Virus record (IMG/VR): IMGVR_UViG_3300001533_002103
Coordinates: 30,793-94,792 of that record
Strand: one strand, 5' to 3'
From: a virus
Length of the DNA stretch: 64,000 nt
A program made the translations under genes and the position numbers. Below the pieces are notes generated by a model, which searched no databases, had not been told where the DNA came from, and saw only the letters and a program-made list of their open reading frames with translations. Shown here in pieces: positions 2,635 to 32,906 of the stretch; within the stretch, counting starts at the first letter, position 1; each line of letters starts with the position of its first letter.

Positions 2635-5349
2635 TTACACCTCTTTTCCTAGTAATAATTTATCAAATATTCCTGAATATGAATCTGGTTTCAACATACT
2701 ATTAATAATATTTTGCCTTGGATTTGAAAATGCAAGTCCCAGAAGCCAACTTTCATATGCAGGAACTGATTGTATACTATGAAATTCCGGTGAATGTTTC
2801 TCTCTATCTTTCATTAATCTCCATTTTTTTCTTCCGACCCACATGAGCTGTGATACAATACATTCATAATGTACATGATATATACTTCTACTAATTCCAT
2901 ATACTTCAAATAAATCTTCTATAATTTCAGAAGGTGTTTTATTTCCAAACCTATGAAAAATTTCACTAGCTCGTGAAAGATCGTTAATAATATCCATTTG
3001 TTTCATTGAATCTGAAGATGAATTATCATCTGTTTGTTTTGTAACAGCAACTCCAGATGTATGAAATGTTCTAAGTGTCAATTGGGTACTTGCTTCTCCT
3101 AATGTTTGAGCAGCAATTATTCCAATAAAAGAACTATTTAAACTCTTATAAAGATCCCCATAACATTTATGACATATCTTATTACTTTTACAGAATATGG
3201 GACTCCTAAGTTGAATTGTTTTATTAATATAATTCTTATAATTATCTTTAGTAATTTTTTCTAATTCACCATTTGTAGTAATATATCTATTGATTAATGA
3301 TTTTGCTTTTCTTTCATTTTTAACAAAAACACTTAAAGTATCTGTAGTTCCACAGTCATCTAAAACAGGATCAATTTGCAAATTAACAGAACTGAATATC
3401 AATTTTCTTGAAAGATATCCAGACCTTCCTGTATTTAATGCAACATCTAATAATCCCTTTCTACTTCCATATGTAGATGTAAAAAATTCTTCTGGTGTTA
3501 GTCCATCTACTAAACTATGTTTAATGGGAGTGTCTAAAATAATCCCTTCAAAATTTGAAATAAAACCCCGAGTTAGAACTATTTGTCGAACCTGATCCCA
3601 ACTCCCTCTAGATCCAGATTCAATCATATATGCATAATTAAAATTTTTACGTAGAAAATTTTCTGTATCTTTACTAGACACTTTATCTAATTGACTTATT
3701 ATTGTGGAATTTTCTTCCTCAGAATACAAGTTATCTCTAATTTCTAATGCATTCTTTATAATAAAAGAGTCTAATGATAATGTTACACCTAATAATGTAG
3801 AATATTTAAATCCAACTCTTTTAATATTATCCAGAGTATTTTTTACAATTTCAACATTATAATTTTCTACAACATCATTTAGTATTTGCAATAATTTTTT
3901 CTTATCTACTATTTCATTTATTAATTGATAATCACTAGGCAAACAATTATTAAATGATCTTCTTCCCTTTGAAATCAATTCCCCTTTACATTCTACTAAA
4001 TCTTGATCTGGAAACATATTTGATGTTAAACTATATATTCCAAGAACTATATCCTGACTTGGAATGAGAGAAATAGATTCATCAGCAGGACTGATAAGAT
4101 TTTTTGTAACTAGGAACTTATCAATTATTTCTTGTTTTGTCTCTTCACTAATTGGAATATAAACAGCCATTTGATCTCCATCAAAATCTGCATTAAATGG
4201 AGAACAGATTAGAGGATGAACTTTAATGACGTGATCTGTTGTAACTTTTATTTTAAATCCAAGTACACTCTGACTATGAAGAGTTGGTTGTCTATTTAAT
4301 AGACAAACTTGATCTTTAGCTAATTCTTCACATATTTCTAATAAATGTGGTTGTTCTTGTTTAATACATAATTCTATATAATCTAATGCCTCATTAAATA
4401 TGCGATCATGACCAATCTCAATTAACTTTTTTGCAATTGGAATATTAAATAATTTTAAAAACATTTGATATGGTAATGCACATTCATCTAAGTTTAATGT
4501 AGGGTCAGGAACAATAATTGCTCTCCCAGAAAAATTTACCCTTTTTCCTAATATATTTCCTCGAACTAATCCACTCTTTTTAGAAAGTTTTTGTATAATA
4601 TGAATATATAATTCATTAACAGCCTTTTGTAATGGAATAAAATATGCATAATATACTCTTCTATCTTTAATATCAATAACTGTTCCTTTTATACTTTCCT
4701 TTTTTGTAAGTATTTGTGTATAGAATCTATTAATTTCATCAAGAGAATGACTATCTTTAGATGCTGATTTAGCTGCTGGTCTAAGATCTGGAGGAAGAAC
4801 AATTACTTCATTTAAAACTAATTTATCAATATTCTCTTTAATAATCTTCCATTCTTCATATCCGTTTTCTAAAAATTCGTCTGCAAAATATCTAACTAAT
4901 TGATCTATAGCATCCAGAGCATACCATTTCTTAACACCGCTTGGAATGTTCTCTTGAGTGGTAGTAGCAACAAATTCATCATCTATCATATACAGGACAC
5001 TATTTTCATCACTAAGAAACAAATTTATATTAGATTTTAATATTGGATCAGCAACTTTATATAATACATCTTTAAACAATGGATTCATAACTGGTAATGG
5101 CAATACTATTTTTGCAAATCTCCTACGTCTTTCCACATTGCTAACAATATCAACACCACATATATTACAAGTACTTCCTTGCTTAGAAATACCATAATAT
5201 GTACCACATTGACAAGTATAATTTTTAATCGGACCAAAAATTTGTTCAGAAAACAGTCCATCTGGATGATAATGTCTTCTATTAATTAACTTTGGAGTTT
5301 TTACTTCTTTGAGATCTTTACAGAAATCATTATCTAGAAAACTTGACAT
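2635..5349 (-). CDS. RNA polymerase beta' subunit, set 1 (904 aa)
   Basis: Largest catalytic subunit of a multisubunit RNA polymerase. Seen in order: GLFSEQIFGP, an N-terminal zinc ribbon (Cys46, Cys48, Cys61, Cys64), switch region GKRVNFSGRAIIVPDP (about 268-283), the Mg-binding catalytic loop NADFDGD (386-392), a bridge-helix segment with SGSRGSWDQVRQI and a trigger-loop segment ending GRSGYLSRKL, then the Cys pair CHKC and the QTLGEASTQLTLRTFH motif. At 904 residues it is well below the roughly 1400 of bacterial beta', but all catalytic elements are there, so it looks compact rather than split. The start ATG has AAGGAG upstream. It sits between a 74-residue protein and the beta gene. Confidence 0.96.
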   Translation of the reverse strand: MSSFLDNDFCKDLKEVKTPKLINRRHYHPDGLFSEQIFGPIKNYTCQCGTYYGISKQGSTCNICGVDIVSNVERRRRFAKIVLPLPVMNPLFKDVLYKVADPILKSNINLFLSDENSVLYMIDDEFVATTTQENIPSGVKKWYALDAIDQLVRYFADEFLENGYEEWKIIKENIDKLVLNEVIVLPPDLRPAAKSASKDSHSLDEINRFYTQILTKKESIKGTVIDIKDRRVYYAYFIPLQKAVNELYIHIIQKLSKKSGLVRGNILGKRVNFSGRAIIVPDPTLNLDECALPYQMFLKLFNIPIAKKLIEIGHDRIFNEALDYIELCIKQEQPHLLEICEELAKDQVCLLNRQPTLHSQSVLGFKIKVTTDHVIKVHPLICSPFNADFDGDQMAVYIPISEETKQEIIDKFLVTKNLISPADESISLIPSQDIVLGIYSLTSNMFPDQDLVECKGELISKGRRSFNNCLPSDYQLINEIVDKKKLLQILNDVVENYNVEIVKNTLDNIKRVGFKYSTLLGVTLSLDSFIIKNALEIRDNLYSEEENSTIISQLDKVSSKDTENFLRKNFNYAYMIESGSRGSWDQVRQIVLTRGFISNFEGIILDTPIKHSLVDGLTPEEFFTSTYGSRKGLLDVALNTGRSGYLSRKLIFSSVNLQIDPVLDDCGTTDTLSVFVKNERKAKSLINRYITTNGELEKITKDNYKNYINKTIQLRSPIFCKSNKICHKCYGDLYKSLNSSFIGIIAAQTLGEASTQLTLRTFHTSGVAVTKQTDDNSSSDSMKQMDIINDLSRASEIFHRFGNKTPSEIIEDLFEVYGISRSIYHVHYECIVSQLMWVGRKKWRLMKDREKHSPEFHSIQSVPAYESWLLGLAFSNPRQNIINSMLKPDSYSGIFDKLLLGKEV

Positions 5350-5353
5350 CTTT

Positions 5354-5578
5354 TTACTCCTTTAAATTTTTTAAAACATGTTCTGCTAATAAACGAAAAT
5401 GTTTTTTTATTTTTTTCGATATGAGTTTATCTATCTCAGGAAGAATAGCATCTACGATACTTTTTGCATCTTGGGATGTAATTGGATTATTTTGTGTTTT
5501 AATTATTTTTTGAACAATTTCATATATTTCTTGTTCTATTTGAGCACTTATTATTTTAATTCCCTCTCCTTTTCCCAT
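5354..5578 (-). CDS. Small helical protein upstream of RNA polymerase set 1
   Basis: A 74-residue Lys/Ile-rich protein that I do not recognise. It looks helical throughout, with a basic stretch KLISKKIKKHFR near residues 52-63. A GGAGAAA site precedes the ATG, and the gene lies 4 nt before the beta' start and 2 nt after the E2-like gene, so it is co-transcribed with both. Its position could suggest a small polymerase-associated subunit, but I see no omega-family motif, and this remains a guess. Confidence 0.75.
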   Translation of the reverse strand: MGKGEGIKIISAQIEQEIYEIVQKIIKTQNNPITSQDAKSIVDAILPEIDKLISKKIKKHFRLLAEHVLKNLKE

Positions 5579-5580
5579 AA

Positions 5581-6501
5581 TTAATTTTCTCCTTCATGAT
5601 AAAATGTTACTACTTCTCCTTTTTTCTGTACTTCTACTGGTCTAAAACTTTTCCAATATGAATTTGAAAAATTCCAAACCTGAAGAATTTTATTTACCAT
5701 TAAAATTGCATCTTCTTTCTTTTGTCCATGAATTAACAATTCCTTAGACCCCACACATATTTTATGGAGATAAGGATCAACATTTGGATGTTTACCAATA
5801 AAAAGAGCATCCATTACTGTATGATTATCATCATATACAAATAGATATTTATTAATTTGAAAACTTTTATCTAATACATTTATTATATAATATATTGCAT
5901 CAGTGTCATAAATAATCATTGGTTTGACTTCATTTGTTATTACTTCAAATTCAGAAGCGTCTTCAAAATATGGTTCTTGTTCTTCATCTATCTGTGGAAC
6001 TTTCCCCCATCCGACATTATCACTACCCTCTATAAAATTTAATAAGGAAGTATTTTTTTGACACTGGTATTCTCTTAAATCATAAGTTCCTAACCAATCT
6101 CTTACTTTATTTCGTAAGTCATCATCCAGTCTTAAATTTCCAGGATATTCTTCTACTATTTTTCTTTTAATTCTATCTGATATTTTTTCATCCCATATTC
6201 TTCTACAATCTTTAGAGAATCTTGTGGTACACATAAGTCCATCTTTATATAGAAGATTATCTAATACATTATAATGACGACCATTTACAAATACATTTTT
6301 TAAGTAGGTTATATTATTAATACTCTCTGTAATTAATGCATAACCATTTACAATAAGCCAACGAGGGCTGATTTTTCTTATGACTTTCCTATTTTTGTTT
6401 AACACCTCTATTTCACGCTGTCGAACAAACTCCTCTGTTCCATCCTTGTTTATTATTTTAAATGGATATATTCTGTCATAAAATACTTCTAAATTAATCA
6501 T
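5581..6501 (-). CDS. E2-like candidate of the ubiquitin-like cassette (306 aa)
   Basis: Candidate ubiquitin-conjugating-enzyme-like protein. The C-terminal half carries DALFIGKHPNVDPYLHKICVG: the HPNV...ICVG arrangement (His238, Cys249) resembles the HPN...C core of E2 enzymes and of bacterial E2-like families (H-P-x-V, then an active Cys in xxICxG). The N-terminal half (about 1-160) is not recognised. The gene starts 1 nt after the second E1/ThiF-like gene stops, inside one run with it, and a GGGGG-type site precedes the ATG. If right, Cys249 would carry the ubiquitin-like thioester. The motif match is short, so it might instead be an unrelated structural protein; the E1 neighbour supports the E2 reading. 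Confidence 0.6.
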   Translation of the reverse strand: MINLEVFYDRIYPFKIINKDGTEEFVRQREIEVLNKNRKVIRKISPRWLIVNGYALITESINNITYLKNVFVNGRHYNVLDNLLYKDGLMCTTRFSKDCRRIWDEKISDRIKRKIVEEYPGNLRLDDDLRNKVRDWLGTYDLREYQCQKNTSLLNFIEGSDNVGWGKVPQIDEEQEPYFEDASEFEVITNEVKPMIIYDTDAIYYIINVLDKSFQINKYLFVYDDNHTVMDALFIGKHPNVDPYLHKICVGSKELLIHGQKKEDAILMVNKILQVWNFSNSYWKSFRPVEVQKKGEVVTFYHEGEN

Positions 6502-6502
6502 T

Positions 6503-7477
6503 CTATGCCCCCTTCGTTACTTCTAATAATTGAACAACTAATTTAGTTTTTGTTGGAATAATACTAACAACAATATCAAAATTACTATGTTCTAATTTAC
6601 TTTGTAATAATGATTGTAATTTGTTTTTCACATCTATTTCTGATTTAAAAAATCCTTTCTTTATCTTTGTTGGAAATGGCCGTTCTTCGTTTGAACCGTC
6701 ATATATCCAAACATCAACCTCTTGATTTTCTTGGAATATTGGACTAATTGAATTTGTAATTCCATAAACTTTATTTTCCAATTGATCATATTCATAAACT
6801 CTATCTTCATAATATTTTTGTAAAAAAGAACTCTCATCTTTCAATTGTTTTACTCCAATATTAGAAGCTATATTATCTTCACTATATATTATATCAATTC
6901 GTTGTTGTCGAAGATATTTTTCTATGGTTAATAGATGTTCATCTATTTTTCCAAAATTTAAACTATATACATGTTCTGAATCACAATATGATTTGAAGTT
7001 ATCACTCATAATTAATTTAGCAGATATTTCTCCAATTCTAATTAAATCATTTTCATCTACATTATCAACATACACACCTCTATAACAAGAATTAATTGGT
7101 GGATTTTTACGAAAATCAAATATTGCAGTATACCCCTCAATAATAGAAATACTAAGAGAAATTTCATTTCCTCTTTGTATAACCTGATCTCTACAATCAA
7201 TAATTACATCTACATCTTTTATTTCTTCAAATTCTACATCCTCATATTTTTTATTAATTATAAAAATCCTATTGTCATTTAAATTCTTTCTCAAACAGTC
7301 CACTTTGGGGTGGTTAATATCTTCTTCTATATAAATTGAATTCTTTAAATTCTTTCTCTTTACTATGTCAAAATCGATTACAATAATCTTTTCAATAACC
7401 GAATATTTTAACAATTCTCGAGAAAAAAATCCACCAAAACTTCCAACACCAATGACAACAACACTTTTAATCGTCAC
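6503..7477 (-). CDS. E1/ThiF-like adenylyltransferase, second copy (324 aa)
   Basis: ThiF/E1-like Rossmann protein that would adenylate the C-terminus of a ubiquitin-like protein. Visible: an N-terminal nucleotide-binding loop GVGSFGG (about 10-16), the acidic end of strand two VIDFDIV followed by KRKNLKN and DINHPK (the usual D-x-D, Arg/Lys and Lys positions of E1/ThiF), and IIDCRDQ near residue 93. There is no CxxC zinc pair. The C-terminal 100 residues are unassigned. The start is GTG, overlapping the 3' end of the preceding 86-aa gene by 4 nt, which suggests translational coupling. It differs clearly from the 224-residue E1-like protein upstream, so the cassette holds two. Confidence 0.8.
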   Translation of the reverse strand: MTIKSVVVIGVGSFGGFFSRELLKYSVIEKIIVIDFDIVKRKNLKNSIYIEEDINHPKVDCLRKNLNDNRIFIINKKYEDVEFEEIKDVDVIIDCRDQVIQRGNEISLSISIIEGYTAIFDFRKNPPINSCYRGVYVDNVDENDLIRIGEISAKLIMSDNFKSYCDSEHVYSLNFGKIDEHLLTIEKYLRQQRIDIIYSEDNIASNIGVKQLKDESSFLQKYYEDRVYEYDQLENKVYGITNSISPIFQENQEVDVWIYDGSNEERPFPTKIKKGFFKSEIDVKNKLQSLLQSKLEHSNFDIVVSIIPTKTKLVVQLLEVTKGA

Positions 7478-7734
7478 TTACAATCACTCTCCTGTTTACT
7501 ATTCAATAAATTAAAAATATCATCTTTCGATTTCATAATAAACTCTACTTCTGACATATCTAGTCTCCCAAGTTTTACAATTTTCATGTCTCCATTATCA
7601 TCTTTTTTATATCTAATAAATTGTAATTTTGGCTTCCCATCATTATACGAAAATATAGAAGCACGTAAAATAGAGGATTCCCCAATTAATTCAACACTAC
7701 CAATTAATTTATCTTTAGAATAATCATACATCAT
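7474..7734 (-). CDS. Small beta-rich protein in the ubiquitin-like cassette
   Basis: An 86-residue protein with alternating strand-like segments (SILRASIFSYNDGKPKLQFI) and a short helical tail; it ends in Cys-Lys. Not recognised with confidence; a PC4/YdbC-like nucleic-acid-binding fold is possible from the layout, but no decisive motif is present. AAGGAGAG precedes the start. It lies just after the hairpin at 7765-7801 and overlaps the second E1-like gene by 4 nt, so it probably opens the second half of the cassette. It lacks a C-terminal Gly and is unlikely to be a second ubiquitin-like modifier. Confidence 0.75.
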   Translation of the reverse strand: MMYDYSKDKLIGSVELIGESSILRASIFSYNDGKPKLQFIRYKKDDNGDMKIVKLGRLDMSEVEFIMKSKDDIFNLLNSKQESDCK

Positions 7735-7764
7735 TCTCTCCTTTCTGAAGCTCTTATGTTAATA

Positions 7765-7801
7765 AGTTCTTGTGTCAATATAAAACATTGACACAAGAAC
7801 T
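7765..7801 (-). terminator. Perfect 15-bp hairpin after the SAP-UBL gene
   Basis: AGTTCTTGTGTCAAT at 7765-7779 is exactly complementary to 7787-7801, with a 7-nt loop. It lies 38 nt after the stop of the SAP-ubiquitin-like gene. No clear T tract follows on the minus strand (TATTAAC comes next), so it may be an inefficient terminator, an attenuator or an mRNA-end stabiliser rather than a standard rho-independent terminator. Confidence 0.6.
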
Positions 7802-7839
7802 CTATCTTAGAATACTAGTCACTACTATTCAAAATTTAA

Positions 7840-8289
7840 TTATAACAACCCCTTTTCACCAGCAGGTTTCAAGAACTCCAATACGTCTCCATCTTTAAGT
7901 ATATATTTATAGTCCTCATTATGTCCGTTTACAAGTGGAGAAGCAAAATCACCAATATTTAAAACCTCTCGAAGTGTATCAGCAACCTCACCGATAGTTT
8001 TTCCAACTACTGCAAATCTATTTGTATTTGCTCCACACGACACCTGAATTGTAGTAGTATAGTGTCCAGTATCCTCAACATCTAACTTGCTAAAGAACTT
8101 CCCCTCAATTTGCTCAATAACATCCTCAGATCTATTATCCTCATTATTACCACCATATTCTTGAGCTTCCAAAATTGCATCTACAATGTCATCCTTTATC
8201 ATACGTGAATAACCAGTTATTTCATATGATCTACACAATTCTCTTAATTCCCTAACCGTTTTTCCTTGAAGTTCTCCTTCTGTATACAT
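7840..8289 (-). CDS. SAP domain fused to ubiquitin-like beta-grasp protein
   Basis: Likely the protein modifier of the cassette. Residues about 8-42 (LQGKTVRELRELCRSYEITG...KDDIVDAIL) match the helix-turn-helix pattern of a SAP domain, which usually binds DNA. Residues about 76-147 look like a beta-grasp ubiquitin-like domain of the ThiS/PRTRC-C type: TTTIQVSCG, then SPLVNG, YKYILKDGDVLEFLKPAGEKG. The sequence ends GEKG-LL, so a Gly (147) is followed by two Leu; such a tail normally needs cleavage to expose Gly before activation, and a JAMM peptidase is encoded two genes upstream. AGGAGGA precedes the ATG. The fusion to SAP is unusual: conjugation could bring targets to DNA. The domain calls are from motif reading. 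Confidence 0.8.
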   Translation of the reverse strand: MYTEGELQGKTVRELRELCRSYEITGYSRMIKDDIVDAILEAQEYGGNNEDNRSEDVIEQIEGKFFSKLDVEDTGHYTTTIQVSCGANTNRFAVVGKTIGEVADTLREVLNIGDFASPLVNGHNEDYKYILKDGDVLEFLKPAGEKGLL

Positions 8290-8298
8290 ATAATCCTC

Positions 8299-8973
8299 CT
8301 ATTGTTTTGCGCTTCTCATTTTTCCATGAGAAGACATGGTTAATACATCAAAATACACTTCACTCTTACCGTAATTTTTATTTACAACGTTATAAAACAT
8401 CATACACATATACGCTGCAACAGATAAATTTGTAAAATATATTTGTGGTTCGGAGTGAAGCAACTCCTCACAGCTAAGTTCTGACGGTAATTTATCTTTT
8501 GGAGATTGAATTTCTGGATGATATTGTGTCAAGCTCGGTGTTATATCCACCCCCCTTTCCCGAACATATAATTGAACATTACCATCTGTTAATTCATTTC
8601 CCCCTGAAATTAACGTAACATTATTTAACTTGCTGCAATAATCTGAAACTATTTTTCTTGTTTTATGATTATCTACTCCCAAAAATACTATATCACCATC
8701 TTCTATCAATTCAGATATATTATTTTCTGTAACAAATGTTGGAATAGATTCGTAATTAACATTTGAAAAGAGTCTTCTAAATTCAGATACTTTTACTTCT
8801 GATTTATTTCCCACATTAGAAAACTCTTGACGCTCTGCTTTACGAGGTTCATATCTCTTTCCATCAATCAATGTAATTTGTTTAGATTGGAAATCTGAAT
8901 AATTTATATATCTACTAATGAAAAGAGATAGTGAAGATCCAATTCCACCCAATCCAATAATTTTAATATTCAT
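8299..8973 (-). CDS. E1/ThiF-like adenylyltransferase, first copy (224 aa)
   Basis: Compact ThiF/E1-like protein resembling the ThiF member of PRTRC cassettes. It shows GLGGIGSS at the N-terminus (ATP/dinucleotide loop), LIDGKRYEPRKAERQEF (Asp and Arg positions that bind ATP), GNKSEVKV (Lys) and FLGVDNHKTR (the GxDn segment). Cys in PSELSCEELL, before the C-terminal helices, is a candidate catalytic Cys for a thioester but cannot be proved. Predicted role: adenylation, and perhaps thioester transfer, of the SAP-ubiquitin-like protein encoded 9 nt downstream. Its start overlaps the end of the JAMM peptidase gene by one base. Confidence 0.85.
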   Translation of the reverse strand: MNIKIIGLGGIGSSLSLFISRYINYSDFQSKQITLIDGKRYEPRKAERQEFSNVGNKSEVKVSEFRRLFSNVNYESIPTFVTENNISELIEDGDIVFLGVDNHKTRKIVSDYCSKLNNVTLISGGNELTDGNVQLYVRERGVDITPSLTQYHPEIQSPKDKLPSELSCEELLHSEPQIYFTNLSVAAYMCMMFYNVVNKNYGKSEVYFDVLTMSSHGKMRSAKQ

Positions 8974-10016
8974 TATATATCTCCCATTGTAAAATACTCA
9001 TCCGTTGGTTCCCAATTACTTTCTATATAATCATCATTAAGTTCTTTAGATTTCAACTTATAATTTTTAAATACACAATGTTCACATGGATTATAATCCT
9101 GTGATATTTGTGGACGAATACTATGAGCAATTGACACTACATGATGAACAGATTTACTTTTTGATTTATTCCCACTTCGATGTGCCAGATTACTCACTAT
9201 TTTTCGTTGAATATTATAATCACCATAGTCACCCCAATAATCAAAATCATAATTAGATTTATCAAAGGTACTAATATTATGATTGACAACTTTTGTCAAC
9301 CATTCAAAGGGATATTTGGACTCATTTTCAGTGGCCTTTATAAAATACTTCTTTGTCAATCTTGAATGATAATATACCTTACGAATTCCAAAAGTACCAT
9401 TTATCTCTTTTTGTTCAGAAAGAGATGTTCTATCAAGTCTAATTGAATCGATATAATCTTCTGGTTCAAGAAGAAATCGTTGACCATTTATAACAATAGA
9501 ACAACTAATAGAAAAATTATTTTCATTTACATTGTCAACATCTCCAAGTGTTATATGTAAACCATCAAAATCCTTTTCATCACTATCATCTACTCCAGAA
9601 TGACTAGCACACATTGATCCATGACTATGAATTGTTCCCAGTAATATATAATTAGGTGGAGTTTCTTGGTTTTTATATTCTAAAGATGCTATTGACACTG
9701 TCTGTTCTGGAACTTTGAAAAGATATTTTTTGGTATTCATATTATAATACATTAATATACCACACTCAGTGTGATATAATTTATAAATATCTCTAAAAAA
9801 TTTCAGCACTTTTGCAAACTGACGTCTTGGTATTTTTTCGACATTTATTTTTGCAAAAGGTTCTACATCTTTAAGAATAGAAATTTTATCAACCTTTGTA
9901 ACACTATTGACAATTCCCATATTTTTTTTTAAAAATATTCCATTCTTTCCAATAATATAACATATATCATCTTTTGGCAAATTACTACTTCCATCATTAA
10001 TGTATACTTTAAACAT
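8973..10016 (-). CDS. JAB/JAMM (Mov34/MPN) metallopeptidase
   Basis: Zinc deubiquitinase-like protease. The complete JAMM signature is present: Glu in HTECGILM (residue 84) and H-S-H-x7-S-x2-D (His130, His132, Ser140, Asp143, in HSHGSMCASHSGVDDSD). The expected role is to trim the two Leu after the C-terminal Gly of the SAP-ubiquitin-like protein, to remove it from targets, or both. The C-terminal 100 residues hold CEHC and an acidic end of unknown role. An ATG exists 12 nt earlier, but it is made by the Shine-Dalgarno sequence ATGGAGGG of the start I chose. The gene overlaps the 800-aa E2-like gene by 8 nt. Confidence 0.92.
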   Translation of the reverse strand: MFKVYINDGSSNLPKDDICYIIGKNGIFLKKNMGIVNSVTKVDKISILKDVEPFAKINVEKIPRRQFAKVLKFFRDIYKLYHTECGILMYYNMNTKKYLFKVPEQTVSIASLEYKNQETPPNYILLGTIHSHGSMCASHSGVDDSDEKDFDGLHITLGDVDNVNENNFSISCSIVINGQRFLLEPEDYIDSIRLDRTSLSEQKEINGTFGIRKVYYHSRLTKKYFIKATENESKYPFEWLTKVVNHNISTFDKSNYDFDYWGDYGDYNIQRKIVSNLAHRSGNKSKSKSVHHVVSIAHSIRPQISQDYNPCEHCVFKNYKLKSKELNDDYIESNWEPTDEYFTMGDI

Positions 10017-12411
10017 TATTCCCTCCATTATTAATTATTCTATCTTCTGGTATTTTCAACAATATCCCAATATTACATTTTACAAACTCCCCTCTATATG
10101 TCGGCTGAAGATAAGTCCTTTTTAAAGATTTACTAGTTGAAATACTAACTCTAGGGATCGGATATCCAATCATATGACGCCTCCCCGAAGTATTACCTAG
10201 TTTATAATCCCAGATAAGTATTTCGAATGATTTGAAACCACGATCCTTAGAAACCTCCACAGTATTGTGATATTGTGCTATGCTACCAATCCCTTGATCC
10301 TCAATGCTTGGCATAGTAACAGGAGTTGGTTCTTTATTAACTATATCAAAATTCTTAAGATTCTCATATGTAATAGTACTTAAATCAGACAAAAGTACAA
10401 GGGGAGACATTGATGTATCAATAAGAAATGCAACAATTCTCAATACCATCTTCTTTGTAAATCCATATACTCGAGTATTTGGAGATATACATACTCCTGC
10501 TCTATTATTTTCATATAATAATGAAACTTTTCTTATTAGAGAAATATTTATTTGAAGGTTATTCAAATTTATATATGGAATATGAAATACTGAAGATTCT
10601 TTATCTTTTACAACAACATAAACAATATCATCTTCTATAATGAAGTCTTCAATCTCAAAAATAGTGGTCATAAAATCTATCCCTTTTTCCCAATCAGCAA
10701 TTACCACTTTATTACCAATATCAAAAGAAATATCTGAACCAAATGTAATAATACGTAATTTTTTATCTTCAATCATCTTCCAAATATGTCCTCTGATTAT
10801 TTCTTCATCTTTTATACTATAAGGTGAAATGTATATAAGTCCATTATATTTTAATATTTCATTAGAATAATTAAGATAAGGACCAATACACCAAACACCC
10901 TTTTCCAAAGAACTCTCTTCTTGTATTATATCTATATCTGTCCTGTAATTAGGTATATCAAGAAAATATGGTCTGTTTTTATCCGATATTGAAAACATAA
11001 GAGACTTACCAAACTCAGATATCTCAATTTTACTAGCAACTCCATGATACATTGTATTACTACTATTATCAAGAACACAATAATTTTTTCCTTCTACAAT
11101 TTGTATTCCTTTAAATCTAATCTTACTTATATCTACTACAGTCATGTCTGTAGTATAATAATACATACGTCCATTGGTGTCATATAACTGAAACCCATCT
11201 CCCCCCGCATATTTGGTAATTTTGTTTATCTCTTTATAAGTAGGATATCCAAACTCCATAATACTAACAATATCCCCAACTTTTACTATTTTTCCATTAC
11301 TTAAAGCTACTTGTTTATATGTATTTTCATCCCCTTTTAAATCAATAATTTTCTTAGCGATGGTTGGAGTGAGTTCTAGTCTAACAAGATTATTTTCTTC
11401 ATCTAAAAGATTTATTATAACTTGAAATTGATCATAATTAAAATATTCAATACGAAACTTTTTACCATCTAATTCAACTTTATCCCCGGATCTAAGTTCT
11501 TCATGTACTACACCATTATTATAATAATGTGAATAAAACTTTTCTTCCATCATTTCGGAATTTGTATTAAGAAGTACAGACTTATTATACTCAATATCAT
11601 GTAACATATTTATACTGTCATTAAATATATCTTCGTTGGAAGAACGTAAATATGAGGTAAATATATTAGTCATAGTGGCTCTTAAACTATCTCTTTTTAT
11701 CCAGGGTACTTGATAAATAAACAAAGGGTTTTTGCTTGTATGATATTGCCATTCAAATAAATTATTTACAAATGGTATATTCTGATAAGCATTATAAGAA
11801 GTTAGAATATCCATATTAAATTCAGTTGACCAAAATGAAGATATTATAGAATCAATATATAGAGAAATCGGTAGATTCTTATCGAGGTCCATTTCACCCA
11901 TACATATGGCACAAGTATTATTTTCTACATTTAATAAATTGGGTTGCAATAGATAATCACTTGAACTAACGATTGGAGATAATCTGTAATAGAGAGAAGT
12001 ATTGTATATATTTTTATTATCTAATAACAACATATACAATATATAAGGAAATGAGAGATTAAATCTATATTTCCGTACTACATCCCTATCGATCATGCTT
12101 TTTGTAATTCCATATTTTTCAATATCTCCATCACGGTCTATTTTATCTAATAATAAACTAAAATTTGCAGTGACTGTTATCGTTCTAATCTGTGGAGGCT
12201 CTTCTATTAATATATATTCCCTCTGTCTTTTTTTCATATAAAATCTACAATTTCTTGGAAGTAATATATTTAAATTTCTATTATCGAAGGTACTACTTAA
12301 TTCCTTTACAAATTGTTTTGTATAAATTAGATTAGATATTTCTTGTCTAGAATCAGATTCAACATCATTTTCAATAAATGTATTACTATTTGTAATTATA
12401 ATTCTTCTCAT
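10009..12411 (-). CDS. Large PRTRC-B-like (E2-like) protein, 800 aa
   Basis: First gene of the conjugation cassette. Residues about 115-200 resemble prokaryotic E2 family D / PRTRC protein B: FNLSFPYILYMLLL, then NTSLYYRLSPIV, then NLLNVENNTCAICMGEM and FWSTEFN, the order hydrophobic Pro-rich strand, PxxNv...C.G, S-x-F/W...F seen in that family. Cys167 or Cys170 is the candidate active Cys. The remaining 560 residues are beta-rich, with repeated segments such as SGDKVELDGKKFRI and VKVGDIVSIMEFG that suggest SH3/KOW-like barrels; this extension makes the protein about three times the usual family size. AGGAG precedes the ATG. Without an alignment the E2 call is tentative, but its place beside JAMM, E1 and a ubiquitin-like protein supports it. 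Confidence 0.65.
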   Translation of the reverse strand: MRRIIITNSNTFIENDVESDSRQEISNLIYTKQFVKELSSTFDNRNLNILLPRNCRFYMKKRQREYILIEEPPQIRTITVTANFSLLLDKIDRDGDIEKYGITKSMIDRDVVRKYRFNLSFPYILYMLLLDNKNIYNTSLYYRLSPIVSSSDYLLQPNLLNVENNTCAICMGEMDLDKNLPISLYIDSIISSFWSTEFNMDILTSYNAYQNIPFVNNLFEWQYHTSKNPLFIYQVPWIKRDSLRATMTNIFTSYLRSSNEDIFNDSINMLHDIEYNKSVLLNTNSEMMEEKFYSHYYNNGVVHEELRSGDKVELDGKKFRIEYFNYDQFQVIINLLDEENNLVRLELTPTIAKKIIDLKGDENTYKQVALSNGKIVKVGDIVSIMEFGYPTYKEINKITKYAGGDGFQLYDTNGRMYYYTTDMTVVDISKIRFKGIQIVEGKNYCVLDNSSNTMYHGVASKIEISEFGKSLMFSISDKNRPYFLDIPNYRTDIDIIQEESSLEKGVWCIGPYLNYSNEILKYNGLIYISPYSIKDEEIIRGHIWKMIEDKKLRIITFGSDISFDIGNKVVIADWEKGIDFMTTIFEIEDFIIEDDIVYVVVKDKESSVFHIPYINLNNLQINISLIRKVSLLYENNRAGVCISPNTRVYGFTKKMVLRIVAFLIDTSMSPLVLLSDLSTITYENLKNFDIVNKEPTPVTMPSIEDQGIGSIAQYHNTVEVSKDRGFKSFEILIWDYKLGNTSGRRHMIGYPIPRVSISTSKSLKRTYLQPTYRGEFVKCNIGILLKIPEDRIINNGGNNV

Positions 12412-12427
12412 AATTATCTCCTATTCA

Positions 12428-12658
12428 TTATAATTCGTCAATAACATCATCCTTTTTTAAATTTAATTTAAACATAAATAATAAATACAAAATCCCAAAA
12501 AACATAAATAATCCAATAAAACTTATAAATTTATTAGGAATAAAGAAAAAGATCAATCCCAATAACATTATCCCAAAAACTGATATCTTCTTTGTTCTAC
12601 TATTAAGTCTATCATAAAACTTTTGTAATGAGTACACTATGTTAAGTATAAAATTCAT
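12428..12658 (-). CDS. Small membrane protein, two transmembrane segments
   Basis: A 76-residue protein with two strongly hydrophobic segments (about 28-40 and 46-65, GIMLLGLIFFFIP and FIGLFMFFGILYLLFMF) and a charged C-terminal tail KKDDVIDEL. It is expected to sit in the host inner membrane. Function unknown. AGGAGG precedes the start, and it lies directly before the ubiquitin-like cassette in the same transcription direction. Confidence 0.75.
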   Translation of the reverse strand: MNFILNIVYSLQKFYDRLNSRTKKISVFGIMLLGLIFFFIPNKFISFIGLFMFFGILYLLFMFKLNLKKDDVIDEL

Positions 12659-12672
12659 TTATTCCTCCTATT

Positions 12673-12978
12673 CTAAATTTTTACTTTAAAACGCAAAGAT
12701 GAAGTATCTAACCATTCAATACGATCTAGTGGTATAGCTCTCCATTCTTGTTTCTCCAAATCATAAACATGAAGTATTTTATTCTTATTAATTAATTTTA
12801 AAATTTTAGGAAGATCAATTTTCTTTGGTTGACTCCTTTTTGGTATTACATCAAAATTCAAAGTACATTTCATCAACCGAATACTTCCATCTGCCTTTGT
12901 AAATCGTATAGAAACTTCCTCTTCATTTTTGAGTTTTTCCAATACATCTATAGCATTATTTAATATATTATCTTCCAT
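12673..12978 (-). CDS. DUF2693-like small protein
   Basis: A 101-residue protein with the pattern VSIRFTKADGSIRLMKCTLNFDVIP, then HVYDLEKQEWRAIPLDRIEWL. This resembles the phage DUF2693 family (an SH3-like/WYL-like small domain: F-x-K-x-DG-x-R...T, then a V-x-D-x-E...WR segment). Such proteins are common in phage genomes, but their role is not settled. Its stop abuts the radical SAM gene's start region on the upstream side and a small membrane protein follows. Confidence 0.75.
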   Translation of the reverse strand: MEDNILNNAIDVLEKLKNEEEVSIRFTKADGSIRLMKCTLNFDVIPKRSQPKKIDLPKILKLINKNKILHVYDLEKQEWRAIPLDRIEWLDTSSLRFKVKI

Positions 12979-14007
12979 CTAATAATTTCTCCTTTCAGTA
13001 TGTATAATTTTATCGTCTAATAAATCTCCATCATCAACGAGTTTTGACATAATCATACATGTATGATTACATCCTTCACAATAATTCTTTTTATCTTCTA
13101 CTATATTTGTAATTAGATTATTACTTAATGAACCATCTTCCATAATATAATCTAACAAATCCATTTTTGGTGTATTAACCCCTCTAATTCGTAAACACAA
13201 TCTAACACTTCCGTCTGCATCAACTGTTAAATTATGAATTCCCTCTTCTAATTTACAATCTAAATTAGATGGAAGAATAGAAAGAGTTTGGTCTACCAAA
13301 TCTTTTCCCATATGAACAAGTAATCCATCATTAAATATCATATCCAACTGTTTAGATAACTCCTCTGAAGGATGCACTAAATCATCTTCATTATAAACAT
13401 TTGCAAAATCATAATATGGATTTTTTGAAATATCGAGAAATGTAATTGAACTGTAGATATTTGCCTCAGACAAATCCTTTACTAATCTCCACAAATGTTT
13501 TACTGTATCATTGGTTACTGTTATTTCAGCAACTAAATCTTTTACATTATTTGAAAACATCCTTGTCATATTCATATGTCCATAGAAACTCTTTTTTACA
13601 ATATCATTATTCTCAAACTTCTTATCATATACTGGATCAACTGATGAACTAAATCCTTCTAATTGTCCAACAACTTCAAATAAAGAAACTATCCTCTCTT
13701 GTATAGCTGGACTATTATTTGAAATTATTGTATAATGTGCTCCAATCTTATGACAATGATTTATTATTTCACTTAAATCATTTCTCAAAAACGGCTCACC
13801 ACCATACCAAATATGAAAACAATTTGGATTATGTTTTTGAAGTCTATTTAATGATTCCAAAATAAATTCAGTAGACATTTCATTTTGATAATAATGCAAC
13901 ATTGATGGATATTCCTCTGGTTTATTTTCTAAGTCCCGAACTATTCCACAATAGCTACATCTTAAATTACAACGACGTGTTAAAATCCAATTAACTATTC
14001 TAACCAT
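12979..14007 (-). CDS. Radical SAM protein with C-terminal Cys cluster
   Basis: Radical S-adenosylmethionine enzyme. WILTRRCNLRCSYCG near residue 7 gives the CxxxCxxC ligands of the [4Fe-4S] cluster; WYGGEPFLR is the GGEP motif that binds SAM. The C-terminal part has a SPASM/twitch-like arrangement: Cys in LDCKLEEG, LTVDADGSVRLCLR, and a final CEGCNHTC, likely binding an auxiliary cluster. That layout is typical of peptide- or protein-modifying radical SAM enzymes rather than of QueE. The substrate cannot be told from the sequence. It precedes two small proteins and the ubiquitin-like cassette, so a peptide-modifying role in that setting is possible. AAGGAGG precedes the start. Confidence 0.85.
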   Translation of the reverse strand: MVRIVNWILTRRCNLRCSYCGIVRDLENKPEEYPSMLHYYQNEMSTEFILESLNRLQKHNPNCFHIWYGGEPFLRNDLSEIINHCHKIGAHYTIISNNSPAIQERIVSLFEVVGQLEGFSSSVDPVYDKKFENNDIVKKSFYGHMNMTRMFSNNVKDLVAEITVTNDTVKHLWRLVKDLSEANIYSSITFLDISKNPYYDFANVYNEDDLVHPSEELSKQLDMIFNDGLLVHMGKDLVDQTLSILPSNLDCKLEEGIHNLTVDADGSVRLCLRIRGVNTPKMDLLDYIMEDGSLSNNLITNIVEDKKNYCEGCNHTCMIMSKLVDDGDLLDDKIIHTERRNY

Positions 14008-18653: not shown

Positions 18654-19223
18654 TTATTCTAAATCGGTAGGTTCTAGATCTTCCGCTTTCAGTTCCACAT
18701 AATTATTTTTCGTTTCATATACTCTAACAAATGAAACATCTAATTGTCTTTTCTTCAAACTATTAAATATATAAAAGGCAAAATATTCTGATGTTGGAAT
18801 GGGAAAAGTATGATTAAGAAATCTATGATCAAACTTATTATGAACAACTTCTTGAAGTATATTTTTCAACTTACCAAAATCTATAACCATCCCATTAGAC
18901 AAATTAAGATACCCCTTTACTCCTACTGTTATTTCTACCGTATGCCCATGTAAAAATCCACAAGTTGGATGACCGGGTAAATAATGAGCAATATCAATCG
19001 TAAATGTTCTACATACAGTCATCGAAACTCCCAGTTGCACTTTTGAAAAACAGGAAGGACATAAGAGTAGAACATTTCCTACAGTATTATTATTTGAATT
19101 TCCATCTTTATAATATGGAGTTAAAAATTCTGTTTCAGTGTCACCACAACAACTACATTGATTAATATCCCTAACTTTATCATTTAAATAATTATCCATC
19201 AATCCTTTTTCGATTTTTATCAT
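18654..19223 (-). CDS. queD: QueD-like enzyme with N-terminal degenerate HNH/zinc domain
   Basis: 6-carboxytetrahydropterin synthase family (queuosine/7-deazaguanine pathway). Residues about 70-185 contain the family set: FTIDIAHYLPG (zinc His), PTCGFLHGHTVEI (catalytic Cys and HGH zinc ligands), GMVIDFGKLK, FDHRFLN (catalytic Asp-His), PTSEYFA and VRVYET. The N-terminal 65 residues carry CSCCGDTE...GNVLLLCPSC, laid out like an HNH treble clef but with the catalytic His positions replaced, so probably a structural zinc finger. The fusion is unusual. In phages QueD often helps make modified guanine for genomic DNA; no other Que or Dpd gene lies in this window. It overlaps the topoisomerase A gene by 4 nt. 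Confidence 0.85.
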   Translation of the reverse strand: MIKIEKGLMDNYLNDKVRDINQCSCCGDTETEFLTPYYKDGNSNNNTVGNVLLLCPSCFSKVQLGVSMTVCRTFTIDIAHYLPGHPTCGFLHGHTVEITVGVKGYLNLSNGMVIDFGKLKNILQEVVHNKFDHRFLNHTFPIPTSEYFAFYIFNSLKKRQLDVSFVRVYETKNNYVELKAEDLEPTDLE

Positions 19224-28790: not shown

Positions 28791-31700
28791 TTATGATCCC
28801 TTTCCTAACATCAAAGCTACAAAATAACTATTTAAAAGTTGTAGTGTGGGAGATGTCTTTGGTTTTCTATATTTTCCCTTTCCTGTAAGTATTATATCAG
28901 AAATAATTTCATTTTTAGTCATATGATCATCACTTAATGGACCAAATTCTTCTTCTAATAAATAAGGACAATTATAAGATAAAAGACTATATGTATCTCC
29001 CTCTCCAATTCTTTGACCTCCAAATCTGGCCTTTCCCGCTGTTGGTTGTTGTGTTTTAGCAACAGATGGACCAGTACTTCTAGAAGTTACTTTCATTTCT
29101 CCAATATGTTCCAATTTATTAATATATGTATAACCAATCGGAACTGGAGATTTTGTTTTTACTCCATAATATGGTAAATATAATTGATATGAAGGATTTA
29201 ATTTCAATATCTTAAATGCACTTTGTATCTGTTTATATTTCGGAGATTTAAATGGAGATGCTATAATTGGAACAAATCCATTATTCCTTATTTGTTCCAT
29301 CATTAGATTAAATTTGTCATTACTAAGTCTTGATAAACTTTGGATCATCTTGGCACTGAATTTCTTATTTGGTGAAGTATCTAATGCTGAATATACATTT
29401 CCAAATAATTGAACAATCTTTGTTTTATCTCTCAACTGTAATGATATATTTGCTAATGACTTTGAAATTAAACCAGTATATAATTCATAAAGCTGTCCCA
29501 AATTCATCCTATTAATTAAACCAAGGGGATTAAGAATTATCTCCACTTTGTCTCCCCACGGAGTTCTTGGCATTAAATTATCCTTTTCTATCAAACTTAT
29601 AATTCCCTTATTTCCATATCTATTACATAATTTATCTCCAACATCCACTTTTAATTCTTGTTCAATTTTAAATACAATTAATATTCCTTTTACTGAAATT
29701 CCTCTCACAATATATTTTTCCTTTGGTATCTTCTTATATTTTTTATTTGTTTTTCTGATTAACTCCGTTAATCTAGGAAAAGAATCTTCACTTAAATTAG
29801 AAAACACTTCAATATCGACAATTGTTCCTCCAGGACTCTTCTTAATATATTGTCCAGATACAATACTAATCCCCTCCTCTTCCTCTGATTCCTCATATCC
29901 AATGATTTCATCTATTTCACCAATTGTTTTATTAAATATTATATCCCCCTTTTTTGTTTTATCTCCTATATTTGCCATCGTTATTAATCTATCAGATTTT
30001 GATAAAGTGACTTCTTCAACAATACCATGTAATGAAGTAAGTTTATCATTTTCTACAATACTTTCGCTAAGAACAATTCCATCTTCAAAATTATATCCCC
30101 TATATGGCATAAGAGCAACTAACAACGTTCTTCCCATTGCTATAGTTCCATTTGAAATACAGGCCCCTTCTGCAATAATATTATTTTCTCTAACTTGTTG
30201 TCCCTTTGATACTTTTGGAACAAAGGTACTGAGAGTATTCTTACCGGAACCAGACTTTAAATGTACAGGTGTTATATCAACATTTGACTTCTTTCCGTCT
30301 TTACAAAGAATAGTAATACTATCTTGTTTTACATCTTCTATTTTCCCAGCACACGGAGACTTTTTTATAAAACTATCAGAAAGAACATTTGTTAAAACAT
30401 TTTCATATCCAGATTGCACTGCTGGTGGGGTAGGATTTTTTAATGGAACAATTTGTTTTGCTTGACTTGTTGCCATCATCATCCTTGCTCCATCATTACA
30501 TTCAATAAAAGGAATCATCGATGATGTAGTAGAAAGAATACCAGATCTTTCATTATCGTCTTCATTCTTAGTCATAATCAATCCACGAGAAGAAGTTATA
30601 AGAGCATTTACAGTCAATTGTTGAGAAATACCAATTGTATCTCCCTCTGGTGTATCAACAGGATCAACATTTCCAAAATAACTAGGATCAACACTTCTAT
30701 CCTTTACTTGGATAGCTCTTTTATCTGGTATTCCTGATATTCCTTTCCCGATTGGTGAAATTCTAGTAATAGAAGACATTTCCTCGATTGGATTAGAATA
30801 CTCCATATTAGTTACTAGATCCAAATTTACAAACTGTGACATTAGCTTTTCTGGTTGAATATAAAATTTTGCATCTTTATTTCCAGATAATACTTGTTCT
30901 CGATATTCTGTATATGCACTTAAAATTTGTTTTTGTAATAGATGTACTAAAACCTCTGAATTTCTAATTCGTTGATTTGATAAATCATTTCTTCTTTGAA
31001 AAAATCCAGTTACAACTTTCCTTGACATATATTCCATTATTGTTTCTAAATCTGTTGGTAATTGTTTATTTACTAATACTTGTATAGCAACGGGGTCAAC
31101 AATATTTTCTATACAACTAGAAATTCTTGAAATTGAATTTACTCTTCCTGTCATTTTAATAATCATGTTTTGAAAATACTCTTTACTCCCAAATATACCA
31201 TCAATATCTAAATTACTTATATCTTTTTCTCTTGTAAAACTTTTACATAACTCTTCCTTAAATTCAGAATCTACATTATCAAATATCAAATATTCTGTTG
31301 GGGAAATTTTTATTGCAAATAAATCATCTTTTGTTTTCTTACTACTAATTCGATAAGATAATTTATATCTTTTTAATGTTTCCTCAAAACCAAAAGCAAA
31401 GGATAAAATTACAAATAATGGAATCCAATAAGAACCAATATAAACTCTAAGATATTTTTCAGTCTTAGTTCTTTTGCTTTCTATATGAAAAATAGAAAAA
31501 GAACTTTCAAATTTAGAATCATATGGTTGTGGGAAAGAAATAGGACATACAACAATTTGATTTAACAAACACTTTTTCTGACCACTAACTCTAAATGTAC
31601 CACTAACTGGATCTATTTTAGGAATTGTTATTTCAATATGATGTTCATTTCCAAACTCGTCTTTTAAATTAGCTTTTAAAGTAGACTCATCAGATTTAGC

Positions 31701-32906
31701 AATTTCTCCAGTCTTAATTGGTTTATCAACAATTGTTATACCAACAGTCTTTATTGGAATTTCTTTATTTTCAAGAAGTTTAAAAGTACGTTCTACATCA
31801 TTCTTTAAATTTATTTCAAAATCGACTTGTCTCTTTTTAAAAATATGTTCTGGAGTTTTATGATCTATTCGATCTGGAATACTGGATGACTCTGAAACCA
31901 CATTAGTTGAATAAGATACTGTTTCCTCCGGTTCTAAAATATTATCTACATATTTTTTATCTATAGCTTTTATTGTGATATCTAATTTTTTATCTGGTAT
32001 TTTTTGTGATATCTTTGTGGATTTAGATACATCACTACTAACTTTGTACATTACAGATGTTACAGATATTCTTTTTAATTCATTTTTTGGAACCTCTCCA
32101 GAAATTATTTTTTCAACCTTGTTTTGGTTCTTTTTTAAATAATCTTTTACTGACTCTTTAGTCTTCTTTAAATTCCCTGGTGAAATCTCCTTAGATATAC
32201 TATTTACAACTATATTTGCAGCTTGGTCTATTTCTTCCTTTTCCTGTTCTGTATCTATATCTACTAGGTCAATCCCCTTAATAGATTTCAGATATTGAAA
32301 TACTCTAGAAAATTTGTATACTCCATCTTTTACTAAAAGTCGATAATTAACTATATCTCCCTGAATAAGACACAAAATAAGATCATCAAAAACTATATTT
32401 CCATCTTTCATTTGTCTCATCAAAGGAAAAAATTTTCGATTAATAAAAGTACTAAATTTTTTTGTAACATCTATAGAATAAATTAATATCTTCCGATACT
32501 TTTGTGGAAAAGAAGATATATTACCATCTATAAAACTTGTTAAAAGCATACCAGCTCGTTGTCTATAATTTTGTGGATGATATTTTTCATCCAAAGTATT
32601 AATATAATTCGTTAAATCTAAAAACTCACTCCTATCTTGTGGAAACTTCATATGGGAAGAATATGGTATTAATCCAATCTTCTTATACTCATCTCTAAGT
32701 TTTGTATCCAATCTAGTTCTTGGGATTTTTGTAAGTGGAACAATCACGGTTCTAACATCAGTTCTTCTTATATTTAATTTTAAATAATCATCAACAAATA
32801 AAGAATTTTCTGAAAAATATGCTAATAAATAAGGGTTCTTCCTATCAATTGGAAATCGAATATCTTTTACTAATTGTGTATATTGTTTAATATTTTTAAA
32901 TAACAT
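28791..32906 (-). CDS. RNA polymerase beta subunit, set 2 (1371 aa)
   Basis: Complete beta subunit of the second phage RNA polymerase. Motifs: VDPVDTPEGDTIGISQQL (fork region), MPYRGYNFEDGIVLSESI, VGDKLCNRYGNKGIISLIEK (active-site lysines), NPLGLINRMNLGQLYELY and the C-terminal TAGKARFGGQRIGEGDTYSL...LLEEEFGPLSDD, which contacts beta'. At 1371 residues it is full bacterial size and is not split, unlike the fragmented subunits of phiKZ-like phages. The N-terminal 400 residues contain a Lys/Glu/Ser-rich stretch (about 250-370) that may be an insertion. GGGGGG precedes the ATG and the beta' gene ends 1 nt before it. Confidence 0.96.
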   Translation of the reverse strand: MLFKNIKQYTQLVKDIRFPIDRKNPYLLAYFSENSLFVDDYLKLNIRRTDVRTVIVPLTKIPRTRLDTKLRDEYKKIGLIPYSSHMKFPQDRSEFLDLTNYINTLDEKYHPQNYRQRAGMLLTSFIDGNISSFPQKYRKILIYSIDVTKKFSTFINRKFFPLMRQMKDGNIVFDDLILCLIQGDIVNYRLLVKDGVYKFSRVFQYLKSIKGIDLVDIDTEQEKEEIDQAANIVVNSISKEISPGNLKKTKESVKDYLKKNQNKVEKIISGEVPKNELKRISVTSVMYKVSSDVSKSTKISQKIPDKKLDITIKAIDKKYVDNILEPEETVSYSTNVVSESSSIPDRIDHKTPEHIFKKRQVDFEINLKNDVERTFKLLENKEIPIKTVGITIVDKPIKTGEIAKSDESTLKANLKDEFGNEHHIEITIPKIDPVSGTFRVSGQKKCLLNQIVVCPISFPQPYDSKFESSFSIFHIESKRTKTEKYLRVYIGSYWIPLFVILSFAFGFEETLKRYKLSYRISSKKTKDDLFAIKISPTEYLIFDNVDSEFKEELCKSFTREKDISNLDIDGIFGSKEYFQNMIIKMTGRVNSISRISSCIENIVDPVAIQVLVNKQLPTDLETIMEYMSRKVVTGFFQRRNDLSNQRIRNSEVLVHLLQKQILSAYTEYREQVLSGNKDAKFYIQPEKLMSQFVNLDLVTNMEYSNPIEEMSSITRISPIGKGISGIPDKRAIQVKDRSVDPSYFGNVDPVDTPEGDTIGISQQLTVNALITSSRGLIMTKNEDDNERSGILSTTSSMIPFIECNDGARMMMATSQAKQIVPLKNPTPPAVQSGYENVLTNVLSDSFIKKSPCAGKIEDVKQDSITILCKDGKKSNVDITPVHLKSGSGKNTLSTFVPKVSKGQQVRENNIIAEGACISNGTIAMGRTLLVALMPYRGYNFEDGIVLSESIVENDKLTSLHGIVEEVTLSKSDRLITMANIGDKTKKGDIIFNKTIGEIDEIIGYEESEEEEGISIVSGQYIKKSPGGTIVDIEVFSNLSEDSFPRLTELIRKTNKKYKKIPKEKYIVRGISVKGILIVFKIEQELKVDVGDKLCNRYGNKGIISLIEKDNLMPRTPWGDKVEIILNPLGLINRMNLGQLYELYTGLISKSLANISLQLRDKTKIVQLFGNVYSALDTSPNKKFSAKMIQSLSRLSNDKFNLMMEQIRNNGFVPIIASPFKSPKYKQIQSAFKILKLNPSYQLYLPYYGVKTKSPVPIGYTYINKLEHIGEMKVTSRSTGPSVAKTQQPTAGKARFGGQRIGEGDTYSLLSYNCPYLLEEEFGPLSDDHMTKNEIISDIILTGKGKYRKPKTSPTLQLLNSYFVALMLGKGS

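Follow-up and report, generated by a model that had tools for sequence, protein, structure and literature searches.

The cassette described here probably gives an uncultured tailed phage a reversible ubiquitin-like conjugation system of two modules, each pairing an E1-like activating enzyme with an E2-like conjugating enzyme. It lies at 5581-12411 of the window, the 64,000-nucleotide stretch of DNA analysed here, which spans bases 30793-94792 of a 97,212-base IMG/VR virus record (IMGVR_UViG_3300001533_002103). An earlier note, made from the sequence alone, had read this region as seven co-directional genes encoding a JAMM peptidase, two different E1/ThiF-like proteins, a ubiquitin-like protein (UBL) and two E2-like candidates, all in a phage and beside its RNA polymerase. 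That reading is borne out: the seven open reading frames (ORFs) are all on the minus strand where the note had placed them. The gene content and synteny of the cassette, the invariance of its catalytic residues and the homology of its E1s, JAMM protein and family D E2 domain are observed directly in the comparisons below. Bacterial ubiquitin-like conjugation is known mainly from cassettes on plasmids, with no assigned role, and as an anti-phage defence. With a cassette such as this one, viruses of microbes may use such tagging themselves, besides facing it in their hosts. In the order in which they are transcribed, the seven genes are as follows.

10009-12411, minus strand: 800-amino-acid (aa) protein with an N-terminal Prok-E2 family D (E2-D) domain (residues ~25-250, by profile-profile match) and ~550 further residues of unassigned function; catalytic Cys170 at 11902-11904
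8973-10028, minus strand: JAMM/JAB metallopeptidase, 351 aa, with a conserved active site (E88 at 9765-9767; H134-S135-H136-x7-S144-x2-D147 at 9588-9629)
8299-8973, minus strand: ThiF-A, an E1-like adenylyltransferase of 224 aa (Pfam ThiF, 3.8e-18; PRTRC_ThiF, 1.2e-7); Cys168 at 8470-8472
7840-8289, minus strand: UBL of 149 aa, with a Rho_N-type helical domain (residues 6-43), a linker, a predicted beta-grasp domain (~75-147) and a C-terminal GEKG followed by a putatively removable LL
7474-7734, minus strand: 86-aa protein, an optional member with homologues in 9 of 58 rpoC loci that have long upstream sequence
6503-7477, minus strand: ThiF-B, 324 aa, an E1-like Rossmann domain (Pfam ThiF, 1.9e-10) and a C-terminal domain of predicted beta-beta-alpha-beta-beta topology (residues 253-324, 6506-6721; AlphaFold2 and Foldseek)
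5581-6501, minus strand: UBC-type E2 of 306 aa, whose C-terminal domain (residues ~180-306) carries H238-P-N...C249 (HPN-x8-C)

The first four genes form module A. In its JAMM protein the full H-S-H-x7-S-x2-D motif reported earlier is joined by E88, and across 108 homologues the glutamate, both histidines, S144 and the aspartate are conserved in 100% and the middle serine (S135) in 97%. The enzyme is predicted from these residues to act in both processing and deconjugation. ThiF-A has every feature expected of an active E1, namely GxGxxG, Asp, Arg, Lys, a second Asp and a candidate thioester Cys, and its GxGGxG, D37, R48, Q49, K57, D101 and C168 are invariant in 74/74 homologues.

For the 800-aa protein and the 306-aa protein, direct scans against Pfam, PHROG and NCBIfam are empty or weak and would have missed both E2s. 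A comparison with only four E2-D sequences was also weak, whereas an alignment of the 800-aa family matches a set of 24 standalone E2-D sequences, including the Pelobacter PRTRC_B protein, strongly through its N-terminus (hhalign probability 99.2, P 7e-20, 196 columns). The hidden Markov model (HMM) of the 800-aa family in turn reaches, at 1e-16 to 1e-7, standalone E2-D genes that directly precede JAMM in other loci. Cys170 is invariant (54/54).

The UBL matches Pfam Rho_N at 9e-12 and ThiS at 0.0085; ThiS and TGS each match 20 of 31 relatives, and Prok_Ub matches neither the UBL nor its relatives. Comparison with a PRTRC_C set gives P 7e-4, with the alignment extending up to the terminal (A)GxKG. 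These matches support a beta-grasp fold. The C-terminus noted earlier (...PAGEKG-LL) contains K146 and G147, which are invariant in 65 homologues. The protein ends exactly at this glycine in 40/65 and carries a single encoded Cys after it (KGC) in 16/65, for example, in L016, L026 and L052.

Module B consists of ThiF-B and the 306-aa protein. The second E2 candidate is supported as an HPN-type E2 by its motif and profile, without a significant fold match. HPN-x4-10-C occurs in 52 of 65 unique members of the 306-aa family, compared with 5 of 3683 other ORFs, and three of those five are further E2-like proteins, from L079, L083 and L086. The H, P, N and C are invariant in the family alignment A4, and the H and C are present in all of A8. 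Members of A4 were picked by an H.N...C motif, so that only the P of HPN, and the members that an HMM brought in afterwards, count as independent evidence. Searched against the PDB at E<=10, the family profile has three matches only, all of them ubiquitin E2s (5nkz, 1yrv and 6xod; E 0.05-1), with HPN and Cys in register. An AlphaFold2 model gives the C-terminal half a predicted local distance difference test score (pLDDT) of about 90 and shows a beta-meander and a helix. Perhaps the N-terminal half is a diverged second copy (HYN...C). Eukaryotic UBC-type E2s (UQ_con) share the HPN followed by Cys, with eight residues between them in most phage members, but the phage domain is small and divergent, and resides in proteins that are mostly 107-180 aa long. 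The conserved peptide pattern of the HPN-E2 has no match in genome contigs.

ThiF-B is modelled by AlphaFold2 with a mean pLDDT of 79. Its best Foldseek match is ThiF (2e-8), with MccB, UBA5 and Cap2 also listed, and its E1 matches in the PDB include Cap2, UBA5 and MoeB/ThiF. It keeps Lys58, Asp94, Cys95 and Asp97. The family ends in -E-T-G-[AG]-A, with Ala last in 64/67 and Gly third from last in 59/67. Overlap with the downstream gene does not explain this terminal Ala, which is encoded by each of the four Ala codons and is found also where the two genes do not overlap. Profile comparison of the C-terminal domain with UBL or PRTRC_C is not significant, and a beta-grasp assignment therefore rests on predicted topology. 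Because the CD-NTases of the cyclic-oligonucleotide-based anti-phage signalling system (CBASS) are conjugated via a C-terminal Gly or Ala (PMC10097602), the Ala end of ThiF-B could by analogy be activated in this phage.

Conservation of the cassette was followed in related loci. An IMG/VR scan with rpoC, which encodes the RNA polymerase beta' subunit, yielded 80 loci, and one with a five-sequence JAMM alignment yielded another 80 on partly shared contigs; scans with the single JAMM or ThiF-A protein found nothing. The census covers those rpoC loci, 58 in number, whose upstream sequence is 8.5 kb or longer. JAMM, ThiF-A, UBL, the E2-D protein, ThiF-B and the 306-family E2 are all present in 51 of these. 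The order radical SAM, WYL_2, E2-D, JAMM, ThiF-A, UBL, ThiF-B, E2, 74-aa protein, rpoC is repeated across dozens of contigs, in which the genes average 27-61% mutual identity, and so cannot be due to chance. Pairwise distances of the cassette genes track those of rpoC (Mantel r 0.60-0.81; 0/999 permutations as high), and the tightest pair is ThiF-B with the 306-family E2 (r 0.85, against 0.64 for ThiF-B with ThiF-A). The cassette and rpoC have therefore long been inherited together, with two units inside the cassette. The two-module structure is further supported by L066, which has module A without ThiF-B and the 306-family E2, and by L054, which has ThiF-B and this E2 without module A; the modules can thus be lost separately.

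In a tree of ThiF-A, the phage sequences form one group with 100/100 support, separate from other PRTRC-like E1s of bacteria and viruses. Ten further contigs join this group: five are viral, with no rpoC visible on them, and five are assigned to archaeal, Falkowbacteria, Lentisphaerota or Planctomycetota genomes. Among the genome-assigned five, L174 has both rpoC and ThiF-B; the simplest reading is that a phage contig was binned with cells. It is also the only one of the genome-derived PRTRC-like loci examined to have module B within 10 kb of JAMM. Matches to an Acinetobacter 'phage' MD-2021a were discarded as phage relatives; they are bacterial moeB genes on contigs that look chromosomal.

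We infer the chemistry, the direction of transfer and the targets, taking the order of events from known E1-E2-JAMM cascades. Where a UBL has a tail, JAMM would cut this off to expose the C-terminal Gly. ThiF-A would adenylate this Gly and then bind the UBL through a thioester at Cys168. From there the UBL would move to Cys170 in the E2-D domain, which would hand it to target lysines, perhaps selected by the 550-residue extension of the 800-aa protein, and JAMM could later remove it from these targets. In module B, the HPN/Cys E2 would be partnered by ThiF-B, which has a beta-grasp-like domain of its own at the C-terminus. Because rpoC is co-transcribed with the cassette and the UBL bears a nucleic-acid-type Rho_N domain, the arrangement suggests targets in the phage transcription or DNA machinery.

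Module B may even be an independent second system, in which the E1 would supply the modifier from its own C-terminus: the beta-grasp domain, ending in the conserved Ala, would be passed to the HPN E2. The lineage would then have two UBL systems, one with a nucleic-acid-binding tag, aimed at its own RNA polymerase. This proposal is tentative. A somewhat more doubtful variant of the conjugation reading, compatible with it, joins the two proteins in one heterodimeric E1, as in NAE1/UBA3 or SAE1/UBA2. Here an inactive ThiF-B would recruit E2s to an active ThiF-A via its beta-grasp domain, and one UBL would feed both E2s. ThiF-B fits this role in having lost the Arg finger yet kept the nucleotide-site Lys and Asp, in the predicted beta-grasp topology of its C-terminal domain, and in sharing an operon with ThiF-A. 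However, each E1 occurs without the other in L054 and L066, and the distance correlations tie ThiF-B to the 306-aa E2 more closely than to ThiF-A.

Several points weigh against conjugation by two active modules. The Arg finger (NLxRQ) of active E1s is mainly N-S/T in the ThiF-B family, which may make ThiF-B a pseudo-enzyme, and the ThiF-A of this phage has two substitutions that set it apart from the rest of the family, D39->K and N45->K. No majority His column follows Cys170 in the E2 domain (54 sequences) or in the 24-sequence E2-D set. Half of the 306-aa AlphaFold2 model is of low confidence; Foldseek lists Ubc13, UBE2S, Ube2N and UBE2L6 among its top 50 matches, all with E >= 0.45. Neither an E3 nor a target is seen. 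Finally, sets of UBL, ThiF and JAMM also occur in sulfur-transfer pathways.

The last point raises the alternative that a ThiS/CysO-like UBL is thiocarboxylated after adenylation by ThiF-A, that JAMM acts like a CysO peptidase, and that the pathway yields a modified nucleotide, tRNA or metabolite. Besides the sulfur-transfer relatives of these three proteins, the single terminal Gly, the encoded Cys that follows it in some UBLs, the radical SAM gene upstream and a gene at 18654-19223 that by eye resembles PTPS/QueD are all in keeping with such a pathway. It is nevertheless improbable, given that the phage retains two E2-type proteins whose Cys is invariant, that the cassette genes and the neighbours searched include no rhodanese or cysteine desulfurase, and that the PDB matches of ThiF-B extend beyond MoeB/ThiF to Cap2 and UBA5.

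As a kind, operons of UBL, E1, E2 and JAMM have been described (Iyer et al. 2006, PMC1779556), and further examples are covered by the PRTRC families. The plasmid and mobile-element systems of PRTRC and of group 6d of Iyer et al. 2006 share with the phage cassette a UBL with a GTKG-type end, a JAMM protein, a ThiF-family E1 and an adjacent E2-D, and the ThiF-A, JAMM and E2-D proteins of the phage are homologous to theirs. The phage has the 6d combination of UBL, JAB, E1 and an E2 with a conserved Cys in one operon; type 6d operons also encode a helical partner protein. Unlike in those systems, its E2-D is fused to 550 aa, its UBL is fused to Rho_N, and module B is added. The 6d E2s are described with an absolutely conserved His downstream of the Cys, which the phage E2-D does not have. 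The phage E1 group is separate from PRTRC in the tree, and scores are below the NCBIfam cut-offs for PRTRC_A (TIGR03735; JAMM, E 6.8e-8, 32.3 bits against 101.8) and PRTRC_ThiF (TIGR03736; ThiF-A, 31.3 bits against 144.75). Single-sequence searches with Pelobacter ParB, PRTRC_E and the adjacent 367-aa protein (in the PRTRC_F position) found no homologue in the window or the rpoC loci. With these cut-offs unmatched and ParB and PRTRC_E without homologues, the cassette, judged by its sequences, works like a PRTRC system rather than being one.

Related cassettes are also found in cultured phages. E2-D, JAMM and ThiF are present in Bacillus phage KLEB27-3 (gp194-199), Vibrio phages D69, D148 and D181 and Salmonella phage Arash, with proteins 27-33% identical to those of the window. 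No ThiF-B/HPN-E2 pair was noticed among their cassette neighbours, and rpoC is not among the neighbours shown. Tandem PRTRC_C-like UBLs are found in two of them: four units in KLEB27-3 gp199 (Prok_Ub, 5e-27; L002 3718-4425) and three in D69 (L003 4304-5095). These look like natural polyubiquitin-like precursors, and a processing peptidase would be needed to separate them. One public phage record of an E2-D/JAMM/E1 trio bears a 'PRTRC_A domain' note. The openly readable literature yielded no papers on phage ubiquitin-like cassettes, in a search that left subscription journals and preprints largely outside.

Among defence systems, CBASS Cap2/Cap3 combines an E1-E2 fusion with JAMM. ThiF-B is nearest to the Cap2-type E1 among defence models (2e-9 to the CBASS E1-E2 models), and ThiF-A has no such match. 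Unlike in type II CBASS, E1 and E2 are separate genes in the phage, and no CD-NTase or effector family is found among the cassette genes. Bil operons contain the same set of UBL, E1, E2 and JAMM genes (PMC11354881), but the phage cassette is on the virus side. Their E2 motif is CEHH (PMC11354881), and neither phage E2 family has conserved E/H/H after the Cys.

Such likenesses bear on purpose, and a use in anti-defence would be compatible with conjugation: the phage could label or de-label host defence proteins, for example, those of CBASS- or Bil-type conjugation. The resemblance of ThiF-B to Cap2 and the established role of bacterial UBL conjugation as an anti-phage mechanism (PMC10097602) speak for this use. 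It is unlikely, because the cassette is near-universal in the lineage and inherited with rpoC, unlike typical accessory anti-defence genes, and because PADLOC models match neither JAMM nor ThiF-A nor the two E2s, and give the UBL a single weak match (0.02).

As far as checked, novelty lies in the duplication of E1 and E2, the HPN-type E2, the fusion of Rho_N to the UBL and the link with rpoC. An E1-E2-JAMM set that is near-constant in a diverse phage lineage and inherited with RNA polymerase would be phage core biology, and an HPN-type E2 in phages bears on the origin of the eukaryotic E2 active site. The proposal is directly testable with seven proteins, a modifier with an invariant C-terminus and the tandem UBL of cultured KLEB27-3.

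The minus-strand order around the cassette is radical SAM, WYL_2, 76-aa, 800-aa, JAMM, ThiF-A, UBL, 86-aa, ThiF-B, 306-aa, 74-aa, rpoC. Because junctions in the cassette are tight (-20 to +16 bases, with a single gap of 105 bases) and most starts are preceded by Shine-Dalgarno-like sequences, the cassette and rpoC are read as one operon. The flanking genes are as follows.

12979-14007, minus strand: radical SAM protein, upstream neighbour (Pfam Radical_SAM, 2.7e-11; 50/58 rpoC loci)
12673-12978, minus strand: WYL_2/Sm-like protein, upstream neighbour (Pfam WYL_2, 1e-11; 53/58 rpoC loci)
12428-12658, minus strand: 76-aa protein rich in hydrophobic residues, in this phage only (no homologue among the fetched loci)
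5354-5578, minus strand: 74-aa protein separating the cassette from rpoC, kept in 45/58 rpoC loci
2635-5349, minus strand: phage RNA polymerase beta' (rpoC), 904 aa, at the end of the operon (PHROG RNA polymerase families; motif NADFDGDQM)

The radical SAM protein also matches viperin models (PADLOC, 9e-13; NCBIfam, 43.6 bits against a cut-off of 180) and is probably a general radical SAM enzyme only. The adjoining beta' gene confirms the RNA polymerase neighbourhood described earlier. This location also bears on a use in tail assembly, as proposed for lambda TAPI/TAPK, where a UBL occurs with JAB. The phage setting and the pairing of JAMM with UBL recall that proposal, but it is very improbable here: the cassette resides in an RNA polymerase/SbcCD-like region rather than a tail module, and has E1s and E2s, with which TAPI loci are not described.

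The record encodes a terminase large subunit and baseplate wedge, tape measure and baseplate-hub families, and on the strength of the terminase, baseplate wedge and tail families its sequence marks it as a genuine, uncultured tailed phage. It also encodes topoisomerase II, a UvsX-like recombinase and ribonucleotide reductase. Megablast finds no match among known phages, and the closest full-length cultured matches of rpoC are about 29-31% identical. The phage has one beta gene (28791-32906) and two beta' genes, the one above and another at 32908-35916 (1002 aa), and catalytic NADFDGDQM is kept in both beta' proteins. The ribonucleotide reductase large subunit (52239-55391, 1050 aa) has an HNH-endonuclease-like insertion at residues ~380-660, which is probably an intein.

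Some distant relatives carry other versions of these genes. The 306-family HMM reaches a 588-aa homologue in L086 (E 2e-4), and the L079 counterpart matches Pfam UQ_con (2.3e-4). L079, L083 and L086 have instead a 500-600-aa E2 (HPN..VC[LM]G), an E1 and JAMM in a row. In L079 and L086, a second set adjoins rpoC, in which a 92-95-aa protein ending in GTA or SSA lies between E1-B and E2. From gene position and tail rather than sequence, these standalone proteins may be a freed ThiF-B C-terminal domain. L083 also encodes, at 853-1563, a 237-aa protein with a helix-turn-helix-like N-terminus and the end ...IEKIDKGA, which may be a further modifier that carries a nucleic-acid-binding domain. At the left end of another record, L250 (57-3388), seven or more short genes made of DPEVRK/WAYxYC repeats are arrayed in tandem.

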